From Terriglobia bacterium (GTDB lineage Bacteria > Acidobacteriota > Terriglobia > Terriglobales > Acidobacteriaceae): 64,000 nucleotides of DNA. This document shows, piece by piece, positions 4,292 to 61,510 of the stretch; the first letter of the stretch is position 1, and every line of letters starts with the position of its first letter. Location: the NCBI GenBank assembly GCA_020072845.1, contig JAIQGF010000004.1:171957-235956 (forward strand). Direction: 5' to 3'. The translations under genes and the position numbers were made by a program. The notes below the pieces were generated by a model. That model was given only the letters and a program-made list of their open reading frames with translations. It was not told the DNA's origin and did not search any database.

Positions 4292-4292
<1 letters not shown>
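2901..4292 (-). CDS. actC: Alternative Complex III quinol-binding membrane subunit ActC (NrfD/PsrC family)
   Basis: ActC has 463 residues and about ten transmembrane helices and belongs to the NrfD/PsrC family. It is thought to hold the quinol-binding site that feeds electrons to the ActB iron-sulfur module on the periplasmic side. Visible family features are the GVGIWGINHPVAWGLAIVNF region near residue 70 followed by WWVGIGHAGTLISA, and conserved aromatic-rich loops such as FYDKHLMWNRMHGPYRAAYW near residue 340. The start is ATG at 4292, overlapping the actB TGA by one base. It is followed directly by actD. Confidence 0.95.
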
Positions 4293-7411
<3,119 letters not shown>

Positions 7412-12397: not shown

Positions 12398-12530
12398 GGT
12401 TCCCGGCGCTGAAGCGCCGGGCTATTGTCATTCGCCCCTTCGGGGCTGGTTTGACGAGCCGGGGACATTCGCCCCTTCGGGGCTGGTTTGACGAGCCGGG
12501 GACATTCGCCCCTCCGCGGCTGGTTTCAAA
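12398..12530. repeat. 37-base direct tandem repeat with GCCCCTTCGGGGC hairpins
   Basis: Two exact 37-base units (12429-12465 and 12466-12502) and a third diverging copy from 12503 each contain GCCCCTTCGGGGC, a tight hairpin, followed by TGGTTTGACGAGCCGGGGA. Just before them lies a related hairpin CCGGCGCTGAAGCGCCGG. They fill the dut-purN gap. They are too short and have no spacers, so this is not a CRISPR array. Confidence 0.8.
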
Positions 12531-22061: not shown

Positions 22062-22075
22062 ACCGCATCGCGCCT

Positions 22076-22245
22076 TTCAGTGCCAAATAGGGTCGCTGTT
22101 CCGATTGAGGATTCAGATTCTATCCAACATGAACATGCAGCATTCGCAGGCAGCCAGACATTCAGTGCCAATTGGGGTTGCTGTTCCGGTTGAGGATTCA
22201 GCTTGTATCCAACATGAAGATGCAGGATTCACAGGCAGCCAGACA
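22076..22245. repeat. 85-base tandem duplication
   Basis: Two adjacent copies of an 85-base unit (22076-22160 and 22161-22245) differ at about ten positions. Each begins TTCAGTGCCAA and ends CAGGCAGCCAGACA. They lie downstream of the lipid kinase stop, in a 402-base gap ahead of a short gene. A 61-codon open frame spans them, but without a ribosome-binding site or plausible composition, so no gene is called. Confidence 0.85.
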
Positions 22246-23775: not shown

Positions 23776-24096
23776 ATGACCAAAGCCGACCTCATCGATG
23801 AAGTGACGCGGCTGGCGGAACTGACGCGCAAGGACAGCGAGATCATCGTCGAGACCATCTTCGACAGCATCGTGCGCTCGCTCCGCACCGGCGACAAGAT
23901 CGAGATCCGCGGCTTCGGCAGCTTCCGCACCCGCCAGCGCAAGCCGCGCGTCGGACGCAATCCCAAGACCGGCGACCGGGTTGAGGTTCCGGCCAAGAAG
24001 ATCCCCTTCTTCAAGCCCAGCAAGGAACTCAAGGACCTGGTGAACACCGGTCATAGCGGCGGCGGCGCGGTGATCACCCCGCCTAGCGCGAGCTAG
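23776..24096 (+). CDS. hup: HU/IHF-family DNA-bending protein
   Basis: This 106-residue histone-like protein bends DNA and organises the nucleoid. The HU fold is plain: MTKADLIDEVTRLAELTRKD at the N-terminus, the GFGSF turn, and the DNA-clamp arm with RKPRVGRNPKTGDRVEVPAK including the proline that intercalates. A ribosome-binding site AGGGAGAGAG is at 23760-23769. The last 16 residues (GGGAVITPPSAS) form a short tail longer than E. coli HU. It is followed by a repeat hairpin that faces pgeF from the other side. Confidence 0.96.
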   Translation: MTKADLIDEVTRLAELTRKDSEIIVETIFDSIVRSLRTGDKIEIRGFGSFRTRQRKPRVGRNPKTGDRVEVPAKKIPFFKPSKELKDLVNTGHSGGGAVITPPSAS

Positions 24097-24099
24097 GAA

Positions 24100-24192
24100 A
24101 ATTAAGAAGTAAGAAGTCAGAAGTAAGAGAAAAACCTAAGAACGGTAAACGCCGCGTGCGTCCGTGTCATTCTTCATTCTGACTTCTTAATT
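24100..24192. terminator. Convergent inverted repeat of AAGAAGTCAG units (class H), probable two-way terminator
   Basis: The left arm AATTAAGAAGTAAGAAGTCAG and the right arm TTCATTCTGACTTCTTAATT are complementary over about 20 bases, with a loop of 38 bases. It lies between two convergent genes (hup and pgeF) and would fold on either strand. The right arm overlaps the end of pgeF, encoding its last residues KKSE and stop. Confidence 0.55.
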
Positions 24193-25121
24193 GCTATCGC
24201 CCCCACCATCCTGCCCGTCACTCCCTTTTCCCTGCGGTGGGAGAACAGCAAGTCCGTCCGGCAGGACGTGCACAAATCCGAAGTCCAGATGTTCTCCTGG
24301 CGCACTCCGGCTGCCAGCAACTGGCGCCGGTTCGCCTCGACCAGGTCCAGGTGAGGGGTTCGCGGTGGTTCCCCGTGGCCCGGCGCACGCATGTTCATGA
24401 ACAGCAGCGGATACTTCCGCCGCACCGGGTCGGACGAAAAGACCTCTTCGAATAGATCGCGGACATACTCAAACTGCGACTCAAACTTGTCCCGCAGCTC
24501 TTCGCTAACCTCATAGCAGCAGCGGTGAATTCCCGGACCAATCGCCGCCTTCATGTCCGCGGGATCGCTGCCGAATTGGCGCCGGAATTCGCCCACTCCC
24601 TTCTCGACAACCCGCGCCAGCGTGCCGCGCCAGCCGGCATGAAACGCGCCCACCGCGCGCCGCACGGGATCGGCCATCAGCACCGGAAGACAATCGGCAA
24701 CCCGCACCGCCAGCACGATCCCCGGCCGGTTGGTGACCAGCCCATCACCTTGCAGGGGCTGCGCCGGAAGCTCATCGACTCGGTGAATCACGCTGGAGTG
24801 GACCTGCCGCATTCGAATCATCGGCCAAAGTGTGTGGCGCGGGTCTTCGACCCGCGTACCCGGGCTGGAGGCCCGGGCCACACTCGCGCCGTCATCGCTC
24901 GCTCCGATGGCTTGAAGAAACAAGTCGCGATTGCGTTCGACGGCTGCGCGACTGTCCTGGGGCGTGATGCCCAGATTCAGCGCCTGCCCGCCGTAGGCTT
25001 CCGACACGCCGCCGCACCGCGTGCTGAACCCGTGCAGGAGCCAGGGAATACCCGCCAATGTGTCCGACCTGAGTATGCTCAGGTCATCAATCCGCTTCTG
25101 TGACTTTGTCCGCGTCGCCAT
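24174..25121 (-). CDS. pgeF: Laccase-domain purine nucleoside phosphorylase (PgeF/YfiH-like)
   Basis: The 315-residue protein belongs to the DUF152/laccase-domain family that acts as a purine nucleoside phosphorylase and adenosine deaminase and has been linked to peptidoglycan editing. Zn-site motifs are MRQVHS (His), ADCLPVLMAD (Cys) and HAGWRGTLARV (His), and LCTSCRTDLLFSHRREKG is the C-terminal signature. Start ATG 25121; a longer start four codons upstream is possible. Residues around 80-97 (SVARASSPGTRVEDPRHT) are encoded by a palindromic repeat that most family members would lack, and the C-terminal KKSE comes from the flanking class H repeat. Confidence 0.92.
   Translation of the reverse strand: MATRTKSQKRIDDLSILRSDTLAGIPWLLHGFSTRCGGVSEAYGGQALNLGITPQDSRAAVERNRDLFLQAIGASDDGASVARASSPGTRVEDPRHTLWPMIRMRQVHSSVIHRVDELPAQPLQGDGLVTNRPGIVLAVRVADCLPVLMADPVRRAVGAFHAGWRGTLARVVEKGVGEFRRQFGSDPADMKAAIGPGIHRCCYEVSEELRDKFESQFEYVRDLFEEVFSSDPVRRKYPLLFMNMRAPGHGEPPRTPHLDLVEANRRQLLAAGVRQENIWTSDLCTSCRTDLLFSHRREKGVTGRMVGAIAIKKSE
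24829..24884. repeat. Three-way palindromic element inserted in pgeF
   Basis: An outer stem GTGTGGC / GCCACAC (24832-24838 / 24877-24883) encloses two internal hairpins: GCGGGTCTTCGACCCGC and CCCGGGCTGGAGGCCCGGG. The insert is translated in frame as about 18 residues. A shorter relative lies between genes at 60965-60994. Confidence 0.7.
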
Positions 25122-25135
25122 CCCACTCACCACTT

Positions 25136-25171
25136 AAATTACCAACTTACCAAATTACCCAATTACTAAAT
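25136..25171. repeat. AAATTACC tandem units (class D)
   Basis: About four copies of an 8-9-base AAATTACC/CTTACC unit lie just upstream of pgeF. The same unit forms the inner stem at 45723-45828. Only one arm is present here. Confidence 0.6.
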
Positions 25172-25217
25172 CGGCTTTCCTGCCGCCGCCCGCCTCATTT
25201 ATAGTTTCTCATTCGCC

Positions 25218-25574
25218 ATGTACTCCGATTTCCGCTGTGTCGAACGCTGGTCGGGAAAGGAAATCCACTGCATGTACCAGGCGCTGATCGTGGCCATCGC
25301 CACGCGCCACGCCGATGCCGTGGATATCAAGTTTCTGGTGGACGGCCATCCCGTATGGATCGCGCTGCCGCATCCCGCCTGGGTGGAGTACCACCAGCGC
25401 ACCGGCAAGATTCTCACCGACCCTCTCGCCGTCGAGGCCGCCGGTTATTACCTGAAATGGGCGGTTGAGGCGGGCGAAAACGGCGGCCGCGAAATGCACA
25501 CCCTGAGCGTCGCCGAGACTTTGCGCCACGTTGACGCCGTTCTCGAGGCCGAACGCGCTGCTCTCCAGCGCTAG
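25218..25574 (+). CDS. Conserved-looking hypothetical protein (118 aa)
   Basis: The product begins MYSDFRCVERWSGKEIHCMY and has an alternation of charged and hydrophobic residues typical of a small globular alpha/beta protein. A central stretch reads FLVDGHPVWIALPHPAWVEY; the C-terminal half (AAGYYLKWAVEAGE ... AETLRHVDAVLEAERAALQ) is helical. There is no signal peptide or membrane span. A TATAGT box at 25200-25205 lies close to the ATG, but no clear Shine-Dalgarno is seen. I recognise no domain; the codon use looks coding. It stands alone between pgeF (divergent) and pckG. Confidence 0.6.
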   Translation: MYSDFRCVERWSGKEIHCMYQALIVAIATRHADAVDIKFLVDGHPVWIALPHPAWVEYHQRTGKILTDPLAVEAAGYYLKWAVEAGENGGREMHTLSVAETLRHVDAVLEAERAALQR

Positions 25575-25767
25575 TCATCCGCCGAAAATGGTACGGCATC
25601 ACAGTTCAGAGTGACCGCGGGCACATCGGTACCGCCGTCCCTTCCTCACAATCGTACTTTTACCCGTCGTGCCGGGGCGTGTTGATCTGCTGCACGGCGC
25701 AATTCTTTTGAAGTCGTCCCGCGGTTGGTGCACAATACTTGATTCGCGGGTCGAAGGAGACGCCATT

Positions 25768-27603
25768 ATGTCCAGTCCTACGATGGAAGCAGTTGACGTT
25801 ACCGGCGGCGAGATCAGGAATCGCAAGCTGGCCGCCTGGGTCGAGGATGTCGCGCAGTTGTGCAAGCCCGACAAGGTGCACCTCTGTGACGGCTCGCCCG
25901 AGGAATACCAGGCGATGCTGCGCCTCATGATCACCGGCGGCACCGCCATCGCCATGAATCCACAGAAGCGCCCGAACAGCATCTTCGTGCGCTCCAACCC
26001 CGCCGACGTCGCCCGCGTGGAAGACCGTACCTTCATCTGCGCCAAAACCAAGGACGAAGCCGGCCCCACCAACAATTGGGAAGATCCGGCGAAAATGAGG
26101 GAGCGGCTCACCCAGCTTTACAAGGGCTGCATGACCGGCCGCACCATGTACGTCATTCCCTACAGCATGGGCCCCATCGGCTCGCCCATCGCCAAAGTCG
26201 GCGTCGAGATCACCGATTCGCCCTACGTCGTCGCCAACATGCACATCATGGCGCGCGTCGGCACCCGCGTCATGGAAGTGCTCGGCGCCGACGGCGAATT
26301 CGTCAAGGGCCTGCACTCCGTCGGCGCACCGCTCGGCCCCAACGATCAGGATTCTCCCTGGCCGTGCAACGGCGAACACAAGTACATCTGCCACTTCCCC
26401 GACACCCGCGAAATCTGGTCCTTCGGCTCCGGCTACGGCGGCAACGCCCTGCTCGGCAAGAAGTGCCATGCGCTCCGCATCGCCTCCGTGCAAGCCCGCG
26501 ATGAGGGCTGGATGGCCGAGCACATGCTCATCCTCAAGCTCACCAATCCCGAGGGTCAGGTGAAGTACGTCACCGGCGCCTTCCCCTCCGCCTGTGGCAA
26601 GACCAACCTCGCCATGCTCATCCCCACCATTCCCGGCTGGAAGGTGCAAACCATCGGCGACGACATTGCGTGGATGAAGTTCGGCGCCGACGGCCGCCTC
26701 TACGCCATCAACCCCGAAGCCGGTTTCTTCGGCGTGGCGCCGGGTACCAGCATGAAGTCGAATGCCAACGCCATGCTCTCGGTCACCAAGAACTCCATTT
26801 TCACCAATGTCGCCCTGACGCCCGACCTGGACGTCTGGTGGGAAGGCATGACCGATCAAAAACCCGCCGAGCTGACCGACTGGCTGCGGCGTCCGTGGAC
26901 TCCGGAATCCGGCCGCAAGGCGGCGCATCCCAATGCGCGCTTCACCGCGCCGGCCAGGCAGTGCCCGGTGATCGCTCCCGAATGGGAAGATCCCAAGGGC
27001 GTGCCGATTGATGCCATCCTGTTCGGCGGGCGCCGCTCCAGCATCGTGCCGCTGGTTGTCGAATCATTGGACTGGCAGCACGGCACCTTCCTCGGCGCCA
27101 CTGCCAGCAGCGAGACCACCGCCGCGACCACCGGCAAGGTCGGCGTCCTCCGCCGCGATCCCATGGCCATGCTGCCCTTCTGCGGATACAACATGGGCGA
27201 CTACTTCGGCCACTACCTCAGTATCGGCAAGAAGGCGGGCGCGAAGCTGCCGAAGATTTTCTACGTCAACTGGTTCCGCCAGGACGAAAACGGCAAGTTC
27301 CTGTGGCCCGGCTACGGCGAGAACAGCCGCGTCCTACGGTGGGCTTTCGAGCGCTGCGCCGGAACCGGCAAAGCGGTAGAAACGCCGATCGGCCGCATGC
27401 CGTCGCCGAATGACATTGACACGCGCGGCCTCGACATTCCGGCCGACAACCTCGCCAAGCTGCTGAGCGTGGACGTGGACGGCTGGCTGGCGGAAGTGCC
27501 ACTCATCCGAGAACACTTCGCAAAGTTCGGCTCCCATTTGCCGCAGGGCATGAAAGAGGAAGTCGACAAGCTGGAAGAGCGGTTGAAGAAAGCGAAGGGA
27601 TAG
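25768..27603 (+). CDS. pckG: Phosphoenolpyruvate carboxykinase (GTP)
   Basis: This 611-residue enzyme makes PEP from oxaloacetate with GTP, the committed step of gluconeogenesis. The start is ATG 25768 with AAGGAG at 25754-25759. Signatures visible are [15 protein letters not shown] (P-loop with Cys276 and the kinase-1 Lys), [10 protein letters not shown] (kinase-2 Asp pair), FFGVAPGTS and the C-terminal [23 protein letters not shown]. The GTP-dependent family is distinguished from the ATP family by this length and by these motifs. A strong hairpin terminator follows the stop. Confidence 0.97.
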
Positions 27604-29331: not shown

Positions 29332-29360
29332 GCGCTCGTGGCGGGAATCTATTCCTCGGT

Positions 29361-29406
29361 TGCCCCACCCTTGTCTCGCCCGATTTTGGCGAGACAGGAT
29401 GGGGCA
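29361..29406. repeat. TGCCCCACCC...GGGGCA hairpin (CCCA-type family)
   Basis: TGCCCCACCCTTGTCTCGCC pairs with GGCGAGACAGGATGGGGCA (one bulge or mismatch) around a 7-base loop. It is the closest relative of the hairpin inside actB. It follows the DUF4139 gene and could act as a terminator. Confidence 0.8.
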
Positions 29407-29410
29407 TTTA

Positions 29411-29455
29411 CACTGACCACTGACCACTGACCACTGGCCACTGGCCACTGACCAC
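29411..29455. repeat. CACTGACCACTGACC tandem units (class B)
   Basis: About six 7-base units (CACTGAC or CACTGGC) stretch from the hairpin up to the base before the next start codon. The same unit brackets the four-helix gene at the trp locus. Confidence 0.75.
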
Positions 29456-59432: not shown

Positions 59433-60800
59433 GTGCGCAGCCTTTTTCTCAAGATTTTCCTCATCTTCTGGATGACGCTGGTGGTGGTCGGCGCGGTGCT
59501 GATCTACACCTGGGGCATCCAGCCGGAGGTGATCGTATCGCGCTGGCGCGGCGCCACCAGCGATGCGGCGGCGCTCTATGCGCAATCGGCGGCGGAGGAG
59601 TTGGACCGCTACGGGATGGTGGCGCTGAATAATTATTTCCAGCGTCTGGAGGCATCGTCGCACATACGGGCAGCGCTGTTCGACGAAAACGGGCAGCCGA
59701 TCGCGGGCAAATCGTCGAAGAGTATGCGCGACCTGGCGCCGCATGCCGGACTAGGCGGCGAGCCGGCGTTCACCATCCAGGGCTCGACGGCCTTGGCGGC
59801 GCAACGCACCACCGGACCCTCGGGGCGGGTTTACATCCTGGTGGCGGAGATGCCGCGCGGGCCGGTGGGGGCCGTGCGCCGGCTGGCGCGGGCGCAGATC
59901 GAGCAGTGGGCCGCCGCCATTCTGCTTTCAGGATTGATCTGTTACCTGCTGACCCTGTACCTGACGCGTCCCATCCTGCGGCTGCGGCAGGCGACACACG
60001 CGCTCTCGTCTGGCGACTTGAGTGCCCGCGCGCCGGCGAAGTTGGAGCGGCGCCGCGACGAGCTGGGCGAACTGGTGCACGACTTCAACCAGATGGCGGA
60101 CCGGATTGAGCTGCTGATGACCAGCCAGCGGCACCTGATCAGCGACATCTCGCACGAGTTGCGGTCGCCGCTGGCGCGGCTCAATGTGGCGCTTGGCCTG
60201 GCGCGGCAGCGGGCGGGCGCCGAAGCCACCTCGTCGCTGGACCGGATTGAACGCGAAGCCGAACGGCTGAACGAGATGATCGGCAAGCTGCTCTCGCTGG
60301 CGCGCATGCAGGGCGCGGCCGGGCCGCCGGAACAGTCGCGGGTGCGGTTGGACGAGATCGTGAAGGAAGTGGCGGAGGACGCTCAATTCGAGGCGCAGGA
60401 GCGGAACTGCGCGGTGCGCGTGGTGGGCGACATCAAGTGCACGGCCGTGGGCAGTCCGGAATTGCTGCGCAGCGCCGTGGAAAACGTGGTGCGCAATGCG
60501 GTGCGTTACAACACCGCCGGGAGCGACGTGGAGATCACCCTCGCCAACCGGGAATCGAGCGCCGAGATCACGGTGCGCGATCACGGTCCGGGCGTACCGG
60601 ATACGGAGCTGCAAAATCTGTTCCGTCCCTTTTACCGCGTCGCCGACGCGCGCGAGCGCGAAACCGGCGGGGTTGGACTTGGCTTGGCCATTACAGACCG
60701 CGCCGTCCGGCTGCATGGCGGAACCATCGAGGCGGCCAATGCGCCGGGTGGCGGGCTGGTGGTGAAGATCCGCGTGCCGGCGCAGTTTAACGGTGGCTAG
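59433..60800 (+). CDS. Envelope sensor histidine kinase (CpxA-like)
   Basis: The 455-residue kinase (GTG start at 59433) has two membrane spans (about residues 5-25 and 160-182), a periplasmic sensor loop of about 130 residues, a HAMP domain (about 185-235, YLTRPILRLRQATHALSSGD), the HisKA box ISDISHELRSPLARLN near residue 247, and a HATPase with NVVRNAVRYNTAG, DHGPGVPDTE and GVGLGLAITDRAV. The HELRSPLARLN box is of the CpxA type. It senses envelope stress in relatives. Confidence 0.93.
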   Translation: MRSLFLKIFLIFWMTLVVVGAVLIYTWGIQPEVIVSRWRGATSDAAALYAQSAAEELDRYGMVALNNYFQRLEASSHIRAALFDENGQPIAGKSSKSMRDLAPHAGLGGEPAFTIQGSTALAAQRTTGPSGRVYILVAEMPRGPVGAVRRLARAQIEQWAAAILLSGLICYLLTLYLTRPILRLRQATHALSSGDLSARAPAKLERRRDELGELVHDFNQMADRIELLMTSQRHLISDISHELRSPLARLNVALGLARQRAGAEATSSLDRIEREAERLNEMIGKLLSLARMQGAAGPPEQSRVRLDEIVKEVAEDAQFEAQERNCAVRVVGDIKCTAVGSPELLRSAVENVVRNAVRYNTAGSDVEITLANRESSAEITVRDHGPGVPDTELQNLFRPFYRVADARERETGGVGLGLAITDRAVRLHGGTIEAANAPGGGLVVKIRVPAQFNGG

Positions 60801-60964: not shown

Positions 60965-60994
60965 TGTGTTCGCGGGCAAGGGGCCCGCGCCACA
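60965..60994. repeat. Palindromic element TGTG..CGCGGGC..GCCCGCG..CACA
   Basis: TGTGTTCGCGGGC and GCCCGCGCCACA enclose a 5-base loop. It is a shorter relative of the insert in pgeF (24829-24884) and lies between the regulatory palindromes and nrfH. Confidence 0.5.
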
Positions 60995-61018
60995 TCGGTT
61001 GCTCTGCGGGGCCGGCAC

Positions 61019-61510
61019 ATGAGAGCGAAGACTGCCACGATCGCGCTGGGCATCCTGCTGGGCGCAGCGCTGGGAGTTGGGTCTTATACCTTCATTTACG
61101 CTCGCGGCTACTCCTATCTTTCCAACAATCCCGCGGCGTGCACCAACTGTCACGTGATGAAGGAGTATTACAGCGGGTGGCAGAAAGGCAGCCATCACGC
61201 GGCCGCGAAATGTAACGACTGCCACACCCCGCCCGGCCTGCTGGCCAAGTACGCCACCAAGACCTCGAACGGATTCTTCCACTCGCTGGCATTCACGTCG
61301 GGACGATTCCCGGATTCCATCCAGATCAAGAATCGCAACCACCGCGTGACGGAAGAGGCCTGCCGCAATTGTCACCAGGACGTGGTGGCCGCGGTGGAGG
61401 GCACGCATCGGGAAGCGGCGCAGATGAGCTGCATCCGCTGCCATGCCTCCAGCGGACATTCGGAAGCGGTGGCTTCCACCAACACTTCTCTTGAAGGGAA
61501 CCTGCCATGA
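61019..61510 (+). CDS. nrfH: Cytochrome c nitrite reductase membrane subunit NrfH (tetrahaem)
   Basis: NrfH is the quinol-oxidising anchor that feeds NrfA. The 163-residue protein starts at ATG 61019; a longer frame is rejected as the extra residues are not membrane-like. One N-terminal span (about residues 6-28, TIALGILLGAALGVGSYTFI) and four CxxCH motifs are seen: CTNCH, CNDCH, CRNCH and CIRCH. It overlaps nrfA by an ATGA, so the two are translated together. Confidence 0.95.
   Translation: MRAKTATIALGILLGAALGVGSYTFIYARGYSYLSNNPAACTNCHVMKEYYSGWQKGSHHAAAKCNDCHTPPGLLAKYATKTSNGFFHSLAFTSGRFPDSIQIKNRNHRVTEEACRNCHQDVVAAVEGTHREAAQMSCIRCHASSGHSEAVASTNTSLEGNLP

Follow-up and report, generated by a model that had tools for sequence, protein, structure and literature searches.

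The window, a 64,000-nucleotide stretch of a Terriglobia genome (hereafter G000), carries on its minus strand, at positions 24174 to 25133, a pgeF gene of the yfiH/ylmD type (Pfam Cu-oxidase_4, E = 1.3e-68), which encodes 319 amino acids when read from a GTG start; our own gene caller favours an ATG at 25121. Inside this gene, at 24832–24883, lies the palindrome GTGTGGCGCGGGTCTTCGACCCGCGTACCCGGGCTGGAGGCCCGGGCCACAC, in which an outer stem encloses two hairpins. The 319-residue reading frame is open across the element and pgeF is otherwise intact, in agreement with the preliminary description of this DNA, which had reported a palindrome translated in the pgeF frame. The 52 nucleotides are laid out as GTGTGG-(hairpin)-TA-(hairpin)-CCACAC, i.e. 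as an inverted pair of hairpins, and code for residues 84–101 of PgeF, SVARASSPGTRVEDPRHT. The DNA between 24815 and 24900 folds with −29.1 kcal/mol, compared to −16.7 ± 2.2 kcal/mol for dinucleotide shuffles, none of 200 shuffles being as stable (z-score −5.7). No Rfam family exceeded its threshold in a search of positions 24000–26000. An sR10 match at 24720–24782, near the element without touching it, scored 17.5 bits versus a gathering threshold of 45 (E = 0.18) and was taken as chance.

Two covariance models were built for the repeat, R1 from nine doublets (alignment A1) and R2 from 19 single units (alignment A2). The pgeF element, one of the nine training elements of R1, matches this model over 24832–24883 with E = 1.3e-13. 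It consists of a first REP unit on the plus strand (24832–24856), with a GTGTGG head and the hairpin CGCGGGTC-TTC-GACCCGCG (R2 43.6 bits, E = 1.3e-8), and of an inverted second REP unit on the minus strand (24859–24883), with the same head and the hairpin CCCGGGCC-TCC-AGCCCGGG (39.3 bits, E = 1.5e-7); both units are training members of R2. In simple word searches, the 12-base head word, with two mismatches allowed, matched 18 times where 21 matches were expected by chance, and the loose pattern TGTGGC-N-GCCACA gave 15 forward matches, seven of which are real doublets by sequence, versus 27 in the reversed control. This pattern alone is thus worthless, and the covariance models were used instead.

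We compared PgeF with its orthologues in the three sampled congeners of G000 (G001, G002 and G003; these four genomes form genus g1, and G007 represents a related genus). In the alignment each of the three proteins is 17 residues shorter at the insert, which corresponds to a net insertion of 51 nt in pgeF. The insertion announced in the preliminary description is thereby borne out, albeit with 52 nt and a net gain of 17 residues instead of about 56 nt and 18 residues. The gene is present in 100 of 120 related genomes (E ≤ 1e-40), with one match in G000. Among the 32 other rows of our 33-row PgeF alignment, in which L017 and L118 are one and the same G007 gene, inspection by eye found the element of 24832–24883 in none; some rows (L100, L101) have other extra residues near this position. 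We infer that the element entered pgeF once the G000 species had separated from the congeners sampled; its loss in those three would be a less simple alternative. H112, C148 and H165 of PgeF are invariant in an alignment of 35 sequences, and relatives of known structure include 6dzd, 6t0y and 1t8h. An AlphaFold2 model of the protein has a mean pLDDT of 87.4, with residues 83–95 below 50, and finds its best Foldseek match in YfiH 6dzd (TM 0.72/0.85). The insert, modelled with very low confidence between helix 62–76 and strand 108–110, would be a floppy loop in an intact YfiH fold, which is compatible with the surface loop considered earlier; its low pLDDT is partly expected, since no other alignment row covers it.

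The element belongs to a dispersed family. In G000, a BLAST search with the pgeF element yielded 17 matches including itself, some of them being both strands of one place, with a best non-self match of E = 7e-12. R1 gave at least 34 matches (150 of 1230 candidates scored) and R2 at least 56 (150 of 6491), totals that are not copy numbers because both strands can be counted, training copies are included and the candidates were scored in part. A copy in G001 outside the training set matches R1 with E = 8.6e-15. Taken with the lack of the 17 residues in G001, G002 and G003, these matches uphold the earlier view of a repeat rather than a normal part of the protein, and further in-frame copies were found elsewhere in G000. 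The relative formerly placed between genes at 60965–60994 corresponds to a single REP of the same family at 60971–60995 on the minus strand (R2 33.1 bits, E = 4.6e-6; outside the training set), intergenic according to our gene calls, which end at 60800 and resume at 61019. In the nine aligned doublets the spacer measures 2–4 nt and the unit as a whole 52–54 nt. TGTGGC is invariant in all 19 rows of A2, rows that had been picked as family members, and several G007 copies have GTGTAG heads. Hairpin pairing is kept in 97.1% of cells, with compensatory changes in three of eight pairs; the covariation score of 0.251, calculated with the structure supplied and with some rows being halves of one element, compares with 0.071 in shuffles, none of 500 being as high. 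At E ≤ 0.001, R1 matches occur in 22 of 150 genomes and 16 of 79 genera of the bacterial family, a distribution that is patchy also under stricter filters. Single units stand beside doublets in this multicopy family. A second type of single unit, TGTGGCGCGGGCGCCCTCGCCCGCG, exists in many identical copies, and the doublet at C22:34484 is a mosaic of one type A and one type B unit.

The window holds other repeats as well. A different palindrome, CCCACCCTTGTCGCTCC.../...GGAGCGACAGGGTGGG, is located in frame at 5588–5643 within an alternative complex III subunit B-like gene (4292–7411, minus strand) and codes for about ENPHPVAPNQGATRVGHP; the protein has nine residues more at this place than the solved homologue 6lod_B. 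An intergenic relative of this palindrome is found at 29357–29412 (77% over 56 nt), and similar palindromes were seen near Y1 transposase genes (L132, L262, L267). Next to REP units in ValS and other proteins (L141, L135, L225), the reading frame runs through short direct repeats of a ACTGGCCACTGACCACT type, giving VASGQW-type peptides; the window copies of this kind (17819, 29412, 37311) are intergenic or at gene edges. In addition, positions 12404–12526 hold a tandem repeat of 37 nt and positions 22065–22234 a duplication of 85 nt, both intergenic by our own caller.

The pgeF element has the layout of a REPIN or REP dimer: two similar hairpin units, inverted and separated by a short spacer (alignment A1; R2 matches on both strands), with a 5′ GT[A/G]G tetranucleotide adjoining each hairpin. 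As far as the accessible text of the two sources goes, the GT[AG]G tag is that of REPs (PMC6006769), and REPINs and BIMEs likewise consist of two tagged inverted hairpins with a spacer, are dispersed and have singlets beside doublets (PMC3116915). The tag of the present family is mostly GTGG, with GTAG in some G007 copies. Taken together, the pgeF insert is very probably a copy of a small non-autonomous mobile palindrome, i.e. a REPIN-like doublet of two inverted 25-nt REP units whose hairpins carry GTGG tags. With regard to a MITE, which would have terminal inverted repeats of a known insertion sequence and a fixed target duplication, the outer stem GTGTGG/CCACAC is present, and the net insertion relative to G001 amounts to 51 nt in pgeF, 54 nt in the C22 gene and 69 nt in an amidohydrolase gene; no constant target duplication was seen, and since net insertion length differs among sites, ends and target duplication are not defined. 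A pre-existing GTGTGGC word as target, hinted at by the G003 pgeF site, was not seen in G001 at the amidohydrolase and C22 sites and was discarded.

The preliminary description had likened the palindrome to the in-frame palindromic elements (RPEs) of Rickettsia. This comparison is supported as regards behaviour, while the anatomy is that of a REPIN or REP dimer whose tag reads GTGG or, in certain relatives, GTAG; the element thus acts like an RPE, whether or not the two are homologous. RPEs (Ogata 2000, 2002, via the available portions of PMC10969869 and PMC3733652) are likewise in-frame palindromes in unrelated and partly essential genes, with insertions that vary among species, and the present family, too, places a palindrome in frame within unrelated protein genes, where it would be translated. 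In contrast to RPEs of about 150 bp from intracellular alphaproteobacteria (PMC10969869, as far as accessible), the element described here is 52–54 nt long, comes from Acidobacteriota and uses several reading frames. RPE-4 and RPE-6, which the accessible part of PMC3733652 equates with short CGTC REPs, appear to be shorter, so that length is weak evidence on RPE membership.

To explain how such copies arise and persist, we propose that a selfish element enters genes, that the mRNA would be read straight through it and that the 17 residues would be carried along as neutral ballast by a loop that tolerates them. A HuH transposase of the RAYT/TnpA-REP type would produce new copies by working on the hairpins in trans. 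The majority of genic insertions would be lost, and stop-free insertions that are in frame and within a tolerant loop would persist, presumably because later indels at such places are selected against. RAYT transposases are the proposed movers of REPINs in the accessible text of PMC3116915 and PMC6006769, and by analogy the mover of the present family is probably a RAYT-type transposase. Matches to Y1 transposases number nine in G000 and one to 12 in five relatives. Searching 39 Y1 loci with R2, we found a Y1 gene of G007 (L263) between two R2 matches of 26.4 bits each, although G007 is rich in copies and the REPs beside this gene may be a coincidence; in G012 (L260) R2 scores 26.8 bits on one side of the Y1 gene and 15.1 bits (E = 0.19) on the other. 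None of the g1 Y1 genes among these 39 loci is bracketed by clear R2 matches, and RAYT movement in trans is for this reason something we infer. At L249 the gltX doublet lies about 650 nt away on one side of the Y1 gene, L265, L267, L270 and L273 have weak one-sided matches (E 0.19 to 0.49), and the one clear match near a G000 Y1 gene (L133) lies inside the neighbouring gatB. As a separate observation from the 26 of the 39 loci that were examined for other hairpins, several g1 Y1 genes (L249, L250, L128, L129 and others) have other hairpins on both sides, GTAG types among them; more than one pair of REP and RAYT may coexist in the genus.

Instead of a RAYT, recombination or gene conversion between hairpins, or strand slippage during replication, could have copied the units, an explanation that we consider possible though rather doubtful. 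It would suit the lack of a clearly linked RAYT in the genus, the variable insertion lengths, the mosaic of type A and type B at C22:34484 and the places where a single REP goes with no net change in length (L172, L227). The layout, however, is that of RAYT substrates, namely tagged hairpins in inverted pairs (PMC3116915, PMC6006769, in their accessible parts), and REPs of the family enclose a Y1 gene in G007 and, with less clarity, one in G012.

To locate the copies relative to genes, we called genes with an unbenchmarked codon-usage script of our own; Pfam-verified genes served as its first training set and long ORFs from the fetched loci as its second, and the codons of the element itself were left out of the scoring. 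We examined 74 R1 places, some of them half or degenerate matches, omitting the single places of G004 and G014 and two weak ones of G007. In genus g1, 31 of 46 places are inside genes, 11 outside and four at an edge; the corresponding numbers for G007 are three, 19 and two of 24 (Fisher p = 1.2e-5), and in G012 two of four places are genic. The difference persists when sites shared among congeners are counted once (26/41 versus 3/24, p = 7.6e-5) and for strong matches at E ≤ 1e-6 (16/17 versus 1/6, p = 0.001). R1 was built from G000 copies, so that G007 copies are more diverged from it; copy location played no part in building the model. All nine of the strongest G000 doublets are inside called genes, eight of which have a Pfam domain, and of 37 single units in G000, nine of which are also among the 74 places, 22 are inside genes, 14 outside and one at an edge. 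Altogether, units of the family were called inside genes at 33 places of the 4.2-Mb G000 genome. The genic share of 31/46 in g1 is lower than the proportion of coding sequence, about 0.85 (p = 0.003; coding fraction of the loci 0.78–0.89 with the same caller), and therefore does not point to a preference for insertion into genes. The remarkable feature is the survival of so many genic copies, intact doublets outside genes being almost missing. The usual REPIN property of being mostly extragenic thus does not hold in g1, location being a usual property and not part of the anatomy.

The host genes, named from our reading of their Pfam domains, are diverse. They encode a PMT_2 protein, an amino acid permease, an amidohydrolase, TsaD, a DUF2207 protein, DnaX (domain III), Der, KARI, PolA, ValS, HflX and ThiS; hosts in congeners are GltX, Der, TruA, PheT, LipB, a DinG-like helicase, ValS, a histidine kinase and ComEC. 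Further hosts comprise a FolC-like Mur ligase, an ImuB-like IMS protein, an Lhr-type helicase, a pyridoxal-dependent decarboxylase, a CoA transferase, a molybdopterin oxidase, phosphoglucomutase, UbiD, an M28 peptidase, LipB, LpxD, a glycosyltransferase 9 protein, GatB, an FGE-sulfatase domain protein, LigA and PheT, as well as a radical SAM protein in G003 and aconitase in G007; single units are also found in LigA, GatB, LipB and FolC. Three of 30 host proteins of one set (L199, L226, L137:5749-6978) matched no family at E ≤ 1e-8, and seven of 20 other ORFs matched none at E ≤ 1e-3, most of these being alternative overlapping ORFs, with the C22 gene one of them. Some copies lie at protein ends (C-termini of the amino acid permease and of the L230 protein; N-termini of the DUF2207 protein, PolA, KARI and ThiS), where start or stop may have been shifted and translation of the element is uncertain. 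A special coding design was considered and rejected: the 16 genus doublets have on average 5.0 of six frames open compared to 4.98 in shuffles, and 14 G007 doublets 5.2 compared to 4.9, so that with counts close to those of composition-matched shuffles the element is not specially designed for being read.

We compared the 33 in-gene sites of G000 with the orthologues in G001–G003, which were collected with joined queries and then aligned. Within a window round the site, G000 is at least four residues longer than one or more congeners at 23 of the 33 sites; at the other ten it is not at least four residues longer than any, in part because congeners hold the same or another repeat there. Clean insertions relative to all three congeners are those in pgeF (+17) and FolC (+14). 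Other doublets are shared at the same site, in Der and PheT by G000 and G002 and in DnaX by G000, G001 and G002, with nucleotide identities of 49/53 for Der, 41/52 for PheT, 37 to 43 of 52 for the three DnaX pairs and 45/54 for an unnamed gene. These six same-site pairs are thus 71–92% identical and free of indels, as reading-frame constraint would predict from the sequences. Identity of the copy is 0.92 in Der, versus 0.84 and 0.87 in the flanks; the copy is below its flanks in PheT (0.79 versus 0.82 and 0.86) and in the L179/L199 pair (0.83 versus 0.92 and 0.94), while in DnaX two G000 pairs fall between or near the flanks and the G001/G002 pair below both. A seventh pair, in a ComEC-like protein (L197/L188), reaches 67% with gaps and represents two different elements, a type B element in G002 (L197 2523–2564) and a type A unit in G003 (L188 2531–2569) occupying one place. 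Remnants (SETRAT in the PMT_2 protein, for example) suggest partial in-frame loss. Single REPs read in frame in an FGE-sulfatase-like protein (L172, 2656–2680) and a helicase (L227, 2554–2578) go along with practically no length difference relative to the congeners; these units look as if they had replaced native sequence, no insertion being demonstrated there.

The phenomenon is not restricted to one repeat family, since in relatives the loops in question hold unrelated repeats. By eye, a CCGGCCGAGGGCGGCCGG hairpin was recognized in LigA, PheT and TsaD of G003, headed by TGTAG in PheT and TsaD and by TGCAG in LigA, and a TGGAGC-headed hairpin in GatB and LipB of the same genome. Also by eye, a GTCAT(C/T)CCGAGC repeat was found in PheT of G001 and in LipB of G001 and G002, and the CoA transferase loop of G001 has a hairpin resembling one beside a G002 Y1 gene. 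A count that names no families (one loop below 15 nt being dropped) gave a perfect stem of at least 7 in 24 of 93 orthologous loops versus 54 of 3149 windows of the same length from the same genes (p = 1e-19), and in 14 of 93 when loops with the family head were taken out (p = 3e-9; control not filtered for the head), p-values that are overstated because related rows are not independent. One of these 14 (C22, G002) is a type B unit with an altered head.

LipB was found in 94 of 100 genomes of the bacterial family. Its loop was read in 30 of 34 loci (L366-L395, L312, L329, L332, L201; 29 genomes), the 34 consisting of the 30 best-scoring ones and four others. The loop follows GMTGVWT and contains 6–36 residues between nearly invariant flanks; by eye, 11 of the 29 genomes, from different genera, have a repeat of one of three kinds in it. 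The repeat in LipB of G027 is dispersed, with 44 matches in this genome and 43 in G054 (E ≤ 0.05, LipB sites included), and some of its copies form inverted pairs about 50 nt apart. In a model of the G000 LipB, the loop lies between strands 138–143 and 159–163 and the block has a pLDDT of 73. The LipB loop, which by eye holds at least three kinds of repeat, thus has the look of a hot spot, as if it were nature's record of a number of insertions independent of each other.

A functional module that selection placed in housekeeping genes, be it a peptide tag, a hairpin that pauses translation or a regulatory RNA, is very unlikely in our view. Many hosts do act in translation or replication (DnaX, Der, ValS, GltX, PheT, GatB, TsaD, LigA, PolA), by listing and not by enrichment, the hairpin is strong, and the Der copy (0.92) is somewhat more conserved than its flanks. 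Yet the use of at least two reading frames and of both orientations makes the peptide differ (VARVSDP..., VWPGSSTR..., GSETRATQ...), the pgeF and FolC insertions are absent from all three congeners, and conservation of the other shared copies mostly does not exceed that of their flanks. Moreover, no Rfam family reached its threshold, the structural model is not confident in the insert, and the same loops are taken up by unrelated repeats. That the insert is an artefact of assembly or binning, or pgeF a decaying pseudogene, can practically be dismissed: G000 consists of 27 contigs that might be misjoined at repeats, but pgeF has an open frame of 319 amino acids with H112, C148 and H165 invariant and one match in the genome, and same-site doublets occur in separate genomes (Der, DnaX, PheT), for which repeated in-frame misassembly would be implausible. 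Nor is there any appreciable chance that an ordinary variable loop became palindromic through its GC-rich codons, for although GC-rich DNA yields long spurious ORFs and hairpins and the head word is at chance level, this reading is refuted by the dispersed family with its genome-wide BLAST and model matches, including the untrained G001 copy, together with the fold z-score of −5.7, the covariation, the intergenic relative and the shorter loops of the congeners.

REPs in frame within genes and the RPEs of Rickettsia are already known from the accessible literature. According to the accessible text of PMC3733652, GTAG and CGTC REPs, both single and as dimers coding for 20–30 residues, lie inside known genes, including those for DNA repair, DNA ligase, tRNA synthetase and pseudouridine synthase, and intragenic REPs may occupy flexible linkers or loops. 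The same text reports the highest GTAG number for Opitutus terrae, and it mentions that Acidobacteria have tyrosine transposases with long inverted repeats on either side, one set of these repeats, from Koribacter, being part of a repeat family. TGTGG is absent from the main text of PMC3733652, and a literature search that largely left out subscription journals returned no report of in-frame palindromes in Acidobacteriota among the matches listed. The present family differs in location: REPs are mostly intergenic in the accessible text of PMC3733652 and REPINs are analysed as extragenic elements in that of PMC3116915, whereas g1 matches are mostly in frame in genes and strong g1 doublets nearly all genic (16/17). 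Furthermore, in PMC3733652, as far as accessible, two Xanthomonas species have their recB REPs at nearly one position and REPs in other genes lie at different sites, whereas here the same loops recur with unrelated repeats. We see as new the combination of REPIN anatomy and RPE-like behaviour with a predominance of genic copies and with the repeated occupation of particular loops by unrelated repeats.

In conclusion, we regard this recurrent colonisation of the same loops as the most interesting part of the finding. Four genomes of one genus display empty, filled, shared and differently filled sites, many of them in core proteins, and comparing them gives direct access to the entry of REPINs into coding sequence and their survival there, to the rates at which new loops appear and decay, and to the question of which positions of a protein tolerate foreign peptides. 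Annotators should be aware that differences in loop length between orthologues can be mobile DNA. Whether protein loops are genomic refuges is a reading to which we give an even chance: in this family of Acidobacteriota, a few permissive loops of housekeeping proteins (LipB, LigA, PheT, TsaD, GatB, Der, DnaX, ValS) would have been colonised repeatedly and independently by unrelated REP-like families, and coding sequence rather than intergenic DNA would be the main habitat of intact doublets in g1. If this holds true, REP turnover would be a measurable source of new loop peptides.
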